Shown piece after piece: positions 4,738 to 10,020 of a stretch of DNA of 64,000 bases; the stretch's first letter is position 1, and every line of letters starts with the position of its first letter. Position numbers and translations under genes: made by a program. Source of the stretch: Allobosea sp. (lineage in GTDB: Bacteria; Pseudomonadota; Alphaproteobacteria; Rhizobiales; Beijerinckiaceae); NCBI RefSeq assembly GCF_030695125.1, contig NZ_JAUYTP010000031.1, forward strand, positions 62,001-126,000. The letters run 5' to 3'. Under the pieces are notes generated by a model, which saw only the letters and a program-made list of their open reading frames with translations, made no database searches and had not been told where the DNA came from.

Positions 4738-4858
4738 CTCGCTGCACTGCACCCGCCCGCCCCGCTGCCAGCAGCGATCGGGCGCTTTTTCGCAGCGTGT
4801 TTTTTGACATTTACGCCGCCGCGGGAATCGCCCTAGCCTGCCGGTGTCGGTAACAACT

Positions 4859-4875
4859 GAAAGGAGGTGATCCAG
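4859..4875 (+). promoter_or_regulatory. extended ribosome-binding site matching the full 16S rRNA 3' tail
   Basis: The 17 bases GAAAGGAGGTGATCCAG are the exact complement of the 3' end of alphaproteobacterial 16S rRNA (CTGGATCACCTCCTTTC, recalled). They end on the first base of a GTG codon. Ordinary ribosome-binding sites pair over only 4-8 bases. The AGGAGG core is 8 nt from the GTG, an ideal distance. Confidence 0.85.
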
Positions 4876-4952
4876 TGTCTCATTGTCATCAACCGCTGGT
4901 TCAAAGCGGGCGGACCTGGACTCTTTCCATGTGGGGTTCTTGTTACGCGTGA
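4875..4952 (+). CDS. 25-residue small protein or leader peptide behind an extended Shine-Dalgarno
   Basis: GTG start, 25 codons and TGA. The peptide begins MSHCHQPLVQSG, ends SMWGSCYA and contains two Cys, two His and two Trp. Nothing else in the 646-nt gap between urtA and rnr looks coding. Support comes from the 17-nt anti-16S ribosome-binding site at ideal spacing and a GC hairpin 48 nt after the stop (5000-5025). A TTGACA at 4804-4809 is a possible -35, but no good -10 follows. It could be a free small protein, a leader peptide acting on rnr downstream, or a translated small RNA. I cannot assign a function. Confidence 0.6.
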   Translation: MSHCHQPLVQSGRTWTLSMWGSCYA

Positions 4953-4999
4953 GCTTTTGACCTTCAGGCCCGGTTACCGGGGCTGCGGTACGGCAATGG

Positions 5000-5030
5000 A
5001 AGGGCTGCCCGAAAGGGCGGCCCTTCTTCC
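5000..5030 (+). terminator. GAAA-loop hairpin after the 25-codon ORF
   Basis: An 11-bp stem (5000-5010 with 5015-5025, one G-U pair) closed by a GAAA tetraloop and followed by CTTCC. The stem is strong, but the pyrimidine tract is not a clean run of T, so it may be a terminator, an attenuator or a stabilising 3' end. It lies 100 nt before the rnr start codon. Confidence 0.6.
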
Positions 5031-9758: not shown

Positions 9759-10020
9759 ACGCAGAGAGGTGGCCGGCCGGCGGCGGGTCTGAGGAGGCCA
9801 GAGTGTCCGCAACCGGCCGGCCGAGCCCTCCGGTTTCCCAGGAGATGCGGCGGACCTGAGCACCCGAGGGGCGTCGCGAGGCAGCGGATGTCGCTGCGTC
9901 GCGCAAACCCTTGCAGCCGGGCCGCGGACGAATCAACGGGATACCGTCGATTCACCAATGTTCATCGATGCTTAACCTTACCGCGTAACCAGTCGAGCTA
10001 TGCCGGGCGGACAGATGACA

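Follow-up and report, generated by a model that had tools for sequence, protein, structure and literature searches.

The element and its parts

The window, i.e., the whole stretch of 64,000 nucleotides of Allobosea sp. DNA that was analysed, carries on its forward strand, at 4851–5024, a full-length match to the Rfam family RF01867 (CC2171), which scores 84.4 bits with cmscan (gathering score 75, E 7.4e-16). An earlier note, made from the letters alone, had described at this site a short open reading frame (ORF) with an exceptionally strong ribosome-binding site and had known of no described family that would fit; on this last point it was wrong, as the element is RF01867 CC2171. The parts of the element and of its surroundings are as follows.

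4804–4809 (+): TTGACA, a −35-like hexamer of a putative promoter of its own (the −10 box is uncertain in the window copy; the upstream T-rich and AT-rich boxes are weakly conserved among 49 family representatives)
4851–5024 (+): whole element, RF01867 CC2171 match (cmscan)
4851–4858 (+): CAACAA-type 5′ leader (consensus around TTCAACAAyC before the Shine-Dalgarno sequence, 49 family representatives)
4859–4875 (+): extended Shine-Dalgarno (SD) sequence, the exact complement of the 16S rRNA 3′ tail, overlapping the G of the GTG start
4875–4952 (+): 25-codon ORF with GTG start and TGA stop, conserved in frame and length, not in peptide past codon 8
4878–4887 (+): 5′ arm of helix P1 (codons 2–5, UC-U-CAUUGUC)
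4892–4896 (+): 5′ arm of helix P2 (ACCGC, within codons 6–8), adjoining P1
4915–4928 (+): mid-ORF mimic of the 16S tail, CCUGGACUCUUUCC, pairing with the SD in the predicted nascent fold (no better than shuffles in the window copy)
4985–4989 (+): 3′ arm of P2 (GCGGU)
4992–5000 (+): 3′ arm of P1, GGCAAUGGA, immediately 5′ of the terminator stem with a 2-base overlap
4999–5026 (+): terminator-like hairpin with a 12-bp stem and a GAAA loop, followed by a T-rich tract

The individual features reported in the earlier note are present. The 17 nucleotides GAAAGGAGGTGATCCAG at 4859–4875 (+) are complementary to the 3′ tail of 16S rRNA, and the second-longest exact match of this kind on either strand of the window covers 10 nt. 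Likewise, the pairing exceeds that of the other starts considered: the predicted SD:16S duplex energy is −32.2 kcal/mol, whereas the best among 1418 candidates reaches −18.9 kcal/mol (a candidate being any ATG, GTG or TTG in a stop-free stretch of 150 codons or longer, provided that over 100 codons remain to the end of the stretch). The ORF at 4875–4952, MSHCHQPLVQSGRTWTLSMWGSCYA, has 25 codons that include two Cys, two His and two Trp, and the GAAA-loop hairpin was located at 4999–5026. The pattern GGAGGTGATCCNNTG is found in three copies in the whole genome, where the two besides that of the element sit within long open frames. Searches of the window's own draft assembly did not find the 16S tail; GGCTGGATCACCTCCTTTCT was found in three of the 21 genomes searched, all of which belong to the genus of the window.

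Distribution and family status

Among 385 sampled alphaproteobacterial genomes, RF01867 was detected in 85 at E ≤ 1e-3 and in 14 above the gathering score of 75. The pattern AAAGGAGGTGATCCNNTGTC, i.e., the tail complement followed by the start codon with at most one mismatch, was found in 89 of the 385, in a single copy except for two in G012, while its reversed form was found in none. The union of the RF01867 and pattern searches covers 99 of the 385 genomes (85 and 14 more); matches in G122, G220, G226 and G239 were left unread in these class searches. In a sample of the phylum, the pattern was present in 49 of 86 Alphaproteobacteria and in none of 213 other Pseudomonadota. A subtype defined by the exact pattern CATTGTCA was found in at least 120 stretches, with hosts that include Sphingomonas, Brevundimonas, Methylobacterium, Microvirga and Bosea among the matches listed. 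Seven plasmid records gave partial matches with no listed gene beneath, where H1–H4 span both ends of the element; no copy was found in the phages searched. Twenty weaker loci were scanned against Rfam and the element reached no family's cut-off (one locus held a tRNA); these lineages therefore lie below the Rfam cut-off.

Removal of duplicates reduced 238 elements to 210 (L242 duplicates L172). Left out before counting were L189 (an RF01867 hit without SD), L188 (altered SD) and L191–L193, of which L192 and L193 match the pattern by chance within open frames; L244–L258 are later finds that enter no statistic. L225, which lies at a contig end and is without terminator, is absent from the P1/P2, mimic, folding and arm-swap sets described below, and L030 from the arm-swap set. 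Across 49 family representatives no variation is seen in the SD between −14 and −6, nor at −4 and −3; this invariance is inflated (and P1 is perhaps favoured) because the loci were found via the SD pattern or RF01867. The earlier note had named lack of conservation of the reading frame or of the extended SD in relatives as an argument against the element; both are conserved across families.

Two observations concern individual genomes. G012 (family f14) harbors two element types, L021 and L190 (CATTGT and CATGGT), and the 11 other genomes of f14 that were searched have a single pattern match in ten cases and none in one. Furthermore, L049 is an alphaproteobacterial copy on a metagenome-assembled contig titled Candidatus Kuenenia stuttgartiensis, a title that looks wrong.

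CC2171 is said to have been named in an earlier study of Caulobacter sRNAs. The accessible portion of the Rfam description files it as an sRNA gene, the structure of which was revised with R-scape in release 15 (PMC11701678). A table for Mesorhizobium, available in part, includes an RF01867 candidate, MH_s33. Literature searches for CC2171, RF01867 and related phrases found no functional study of the family, and no function is given in the available parts of the publications that name RF01867. The element was already known as a catalogued RNA; as a translated, bistable RNA that matches the ribosomal tail it is undescribed in the literature searched. What is added here to Rfam's CC2171 entry is the conserved ORF, the exact 16S-tail complement, the mid-ORF mimic and the lineages below the cut-off.

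The reading frame is kept, the peptide mostly not

An in-frame stop at codon 18–36 is found in 201 of the 210 non-redundant elements, whereas the two alternative frames have one in 49 and 59; counted by family the values are 47 of 49, compared with 11 and 9. From codon 9 onward, dN/dS amounts to 0.87 (278 pairs) or 0.92 (59 non-overlapping pairs), out-of-frame values are 0.80–1.01, and the changes are spread evenly over the three codon positions (854/875/829). In codons 2–8, the in-frame dN/dS is 0.37 (278 pairs) or 0.38 (59 pairs) with out-of-frame values of 0.78–1.0 and 1.05–1.36, and changes at positions 1, 2 and 3 number 89, 90 and 171, i.e., about twice as many at the third. The Ka/Ks comparison proposed in the earlier note thereby gave a divided answer, with an in-frame signal in codons 2–8 and a remainder that behaves like the out-of-frame controls. 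The low ratio together with the third-position excess makes some selection on the first residues likely, beside P1; the signal in codons 2–8 may reflect selection on these residues, the P1/P2 helix located there, or both. By these sequence comparisons, selection acts on the frame and not on the C-terminal two thirds of the peptide; it may act on the first residues. Because length is kept far better than peptide, the element resembles a ribosome-operated RNA switch more than a protein gene.

A metal-binding or secreted peptide, which the earlier note had considered, finds no backing in these data: there is no amino-acid selection past codon 8, and the residues MSHCH are encoded by a strand of the covarying helix, although codons 2–8 carry the in-frame signal given above. 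A conserved peptide or metal site was not favoured for the same reason and because the peptide motifs overlap RNA pairing. In 90 of the 210 elements a Trp is encoded in the mid-ORF mimic part, and the recurrent TWxxAS motif is explicable as RNA (ACC TGG ATC nnn GCC TC) because the mimic lies there. No Pfam family was matched at E ≤ 1 by the five products tested, and no NCBIfam family came near its cut-off.

The length of the frame departs from the usual in a few lineages. L154 and L240 (f106) and L198 and L201 (f53) have the usual extended SD and start with frames of 55–58 codons and a signal-peptide-like N-terminus; in each of these two lineages the short frame may have given rise to a small secreted protein. 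At the other extreme, L062, L129 and L162 have frames of 14 codons; a copy of the 16S tail lies at +25 to +43 inside the ORF in L162 and L062, and the best 16S-tail match of L129 falls outside the ORF.

A long-range helix and a copy of the 16S tail

Codons 2–8 are complementary to the sequence immediately 5′ of the terminator, and the two segments define the helices P1 and P2. When duplex energies of own and foreign arms were compared, own arms gave a mean of −14.6 kcal/mol and the arms of other families −9.7 kcal/mol (93 loci, p = 5e-15); with one locus per family the difference persists (49 families, p = 4e-11). The covarying pairs are, e.g., CAUUGUC/GACAAUG, CAUGGU/ACCAUG, GUGAG/CUCAC and GUGAA/UUCAC, as well as AUGAGAUU/AAUCUCAU and CGAGAUC/GAUCUCG. 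At the level of single loci, 61 of the 93 fall outside the best 5% of mismatched pairings; P1 fails in L171 (rank 89/89), L196 (76/90) and L027 (61/92), and the scored site of L167 (44/92) is close to the end of its contig. In the finished RNA, P1 over codons 2–8 could be a block to translation.

A second segment, located in most families at about +25 to +80, has complementarity to the SD and the start. The pairing of the SD with the interior has a mean z of −1.31 relative to dinucleotide shuffles (49 families, p = 1e-10), where 17 of the 49 are individually below 0.05; 32 are individually not significant, and the window copy pairs no better than shuffles (z = +0.39). This mimic of the 16S tail tracks the variable end of the SD, as seen when own interiors were compared with foreign interiors from elements in which this end differs (family-level p = 0.0013) and when the 9-nt variable part of the SD was considered alone (p = 0.008). 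Examples of SD and mimic are GAUCCAG/CUGGAUC, GAUCCCG/CGGGAUC (L025), GAUCCU/AGGAUC (L029) and GAUCCGAU/AUCGGAUC (L183). The position of the mimic is linked to that of the ORF: its end lies within the ORF in 44 of 49 families (90%), compared with 59% in shuffles (0 of 200 shuffles), and its position correlates with ORF length with a rho of 0.59, compared with 0.19 (0 of 200 shuffles). The mean predicted duplex energies are −30.2 kcal/mol for SD:16S tail and −16.1 kcal/mol for SD:mimic.

Predicted opening and closing of the SD during transcription

Folding of transcripts of increasing length, which left out ribosomes, proteins, kinetics and pseudoknots, predicts that the SD is first closed and then opened. 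Over 49 families the SD is unpaired with a probability of 0.55 at +10, which falls to 0.23 at +70, compared with 0.35 for shuffled bodies (p = 1e-6). At +100 the value is no longer significantly different from shuffles, and at full length the SD is more open than in shuffled RNAs (0.43 compared with 0.33, p = 5e-4). A second set yielded 0.17 at +60, compared with 0.33 (p = 2e-10), and 0.47 at full length, compared with 0.32 (p = 6.5e-10); it consisted of 70 loci obtained from 114 by filtering at <65% identity and removal of identical copies, and it shares genera with the first set. Here the shuffles start at +24, whereas in the 49 families they start directly after the start codon. For 17 Bosea-type loci the predicted values are 0.20 at +60 and 0.56 at full length, with closure significant at +60 and +90 and not at +70 or +80; for the window copy they are 0.16 at +60 and 0.55 at full length.

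The contributions of the two pairing segments were distinguished by replacing each with that of another family (48 families). A foreign 3′ arm lowered the opening of the SD from 0.44 to 0.29 (p = 1.5e-7), and the predicted opening therefore depends on the cognate P1. A foreign mid-ORF hardly altered closure (0.27 compared with 0.25, p = 0.20); the closing is therefore not specific to the cognate segment and rests on a property common to the members of the family.

Neighborhood

In the window, the start of rnr is found about 100 nt beyond the terminator, and the earlier note had considered the element as a leader for this gene. Of 150 loci examined with tblastn, rnr adjoins 17, all of the Bosea type, and some loci end too near the element to tell. 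The 17 also carry urtA or sit in contigs with Bosea in the title (those of L111–L150 were not included here), with the exception of L040, which is titled as a Methylobacterium metagenome-assembled genome. At 35 loci the flanking frames have no gene in common, as judged from the longest frames, without family search and with some frames spurious in GC-rich DNA. Because the neighbors vary among lineages, the reading as a leader for rnr was rejected. The other suggestion of the earlier note, i.e., a compact unit of its own, agrees with what is seen: promoter-like boxes of weak conservation, followed by the SD, the ORF and a terminator-like hairpin.

A translation-rescue neighborhood was considered on account of rnr in the window, an arfB-like frame at L170 and an RF3-like frame beside L047, and was set aside because the neighbors in other lineages are unrelated; the names of these frames were assigned by eye. 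On the downstream side of L170 (family f24) is the frame that resembles ArfB, a ribosome-rescue hydrolase; the frame upstream of this locus resembles a membrane transporter. Elsewhere in the window, 9766–9874 (−) matches Rfam RF02500 (Atu_C6 / EcpR1 sRNA) with 65.1 bits at a cut-off of 60.

A proposed ribosome-docking switch

At the level of sequence, an extended SD, the covarying P1/P2 helices, a frame that is kept with no selection on its peptide beyond codon 8 and an SD-complementary segment that lies mostly within the ORF are established; a closed nascent state and an open finished state are predicted from folding. Our favored interpretation, to which we assign a probability of slightly less than one half (about 0.48), is that the stand-alone CC2171 RNA is a bistable, ribosome-docking switch with the ORF as its moving part. 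In the nascent RNA, the mid-ORF copy of the 16S tail would pair with the SD and hide it, such that ribosomes are kept off during synthesis. Once the sequence before the terminator has been made, codons 2–8 would pair there to form P1/P2, the body would lock and the SD would open. The 30S subunit could then dock by its entire 3′ tail, outcompeting the internal copy, and the ribosome would sweep P1 and the mimic as it moves across the ~25-codon ORF and then leave, with no particular peptide needed. From these elements we infer capture of the 30S subunit in the cell, the output of which would most likely be that of a trans-acting sensor or sponge for free 30S subunits. The ribosome-sequestering and translation-sensing roles that were among the options of the earlier note are close to this interpretation.

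A wider form of the proposal is more doubtful, namely an RNA used throughout the class for sensing or buffering free 30S subunits, in which an exact complement of the 16S tail is combined with an internal mimic of the tail, such that the mimic and the tails of ribosomes compete, and in which translation of the ORF matters through the ribosome's movement rather than through the product. The proposed switch makes a testable device of an unexplained Rfam entry; if it is right, a widely conserved ORF would be selected for translation and hardly for peptide, the 16S tail would compete with an internal copy of itself in a natural RNA, and free-ribosome monitoring in these bacteria would become directly testable. 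According to the accessible part of a Caulobacter study, about three quarters of the genes are initiated without an SD (PMC4117421), which makes the full-length SD on the CC2171 RNA striking; ribosome profiling in the same study showed that two earlier predicted noncoding RNAs are translated (PMC4117421).

Alternative explanations and known systems

The favored switch has to be weighed against more conventional roles. A usual trans-acting, base-pairing sRNA that reaches an mRNA target via an exposed segment, with the ORF and SD mainly for protection or timing, would fit the sRNA class in Rfam and the stand-alone-looking gene with its terminator, and the SD-complementary mid-ORF segment could pair with ribosome-binding sites of mRNAs. 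We nevertheless consider this role unlikely, since conservation peaks at the SD and start rather than at a seed loop and the mid-ORF segment is fitted within the ORF. The conserved frame and length, the in-frame dN/dS of codons 2–8, the recurring TWxxAS and EQPS motifs and the secreted-looking 55–58-residue products of two lineages might instead point to a protein-coding gene, with a functional product of ~25 residues translated from a very strong ribosome-binding site. Such a gene is rather improbable given that dN/dS past codon 8 equals that of the out-of-frame controls, that the recurrent motifs coincide with SD-complementary RNA and MSHCH with the P1 arm, and that the products tested were without matches in Pfam and NCBIfam at the thresholds given above.

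Nascent hairpins that hide the SD, combined with pairing between the 5′ and 3′ ends, are also found in AapA3, the described device nearest to this one, a type I toxin mRNA of Helicobacter pylori with a short ORF, where an anti-SD hides the SD in the nascent transcript (PMC6733600, accessible part). The likeness raises the question whether the element is an mRNA of the type I toxin-antitoxin kind, paired with an antisense antitoxin, a reading to which we give only a slim probability. In AapA3 the SD is hidden in the nascent RNA and again when the RNA is complete (PMC6733600, in the part available), whereas the complete CC2171 RNA is predicted to be open. That is, folding predicts a hidden SD in the nascent CC2171 transcript, as for type I toxin mRNAs, and a long-distance pairing that opens rather than closes the SD at full length. 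Moreover, unlike in type I toxin mRNAs, dN/dS past codon 8 gives no sign of a toxic peptide under selection, and no hydrophobic stretch is common to the peptides listed.

Leader-peptide attenuators likewise bring together a short ORF, RNA folding and a terminator. A leader coding sequence before trpS is mentioned in the accessible text of the Caulobacter study (PMC4117421). A leader or attenuator that controls rnr or other downstream genes would account for rnr in the window and at 17 of 150 loci and for the arfB-like frame downstream in L170. The probability is, however, smaller still: 133 of the 150 loci are without rnr (some end too near to tell), no downstream gene in the same direction is shared among the flanks of the 35 loci inspected, and, unlike in leader-peptide attenuators, no single amino acid is enriched as judged by eye. 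An equally slight chance applies to a role in guiding or chaperoning the 16S rRNA 3′ end during maturation, in which the RNA would pair with pre-16S rather than with the finished 30S subunit; the complementarity does span the whole 16S tail, but a conserved open frame of set length would be needless for such a function. The SD itself has a counterpart in the extended SD sites of Staphylococcus aureus, in which pairing is stretched beyond the core toward the start codon; the available part of that report describes two extra base pairs in the aur mRNA, whereas the CC2171 element has the whole 17 nt and a 25-codon ORF (PMC13009471).
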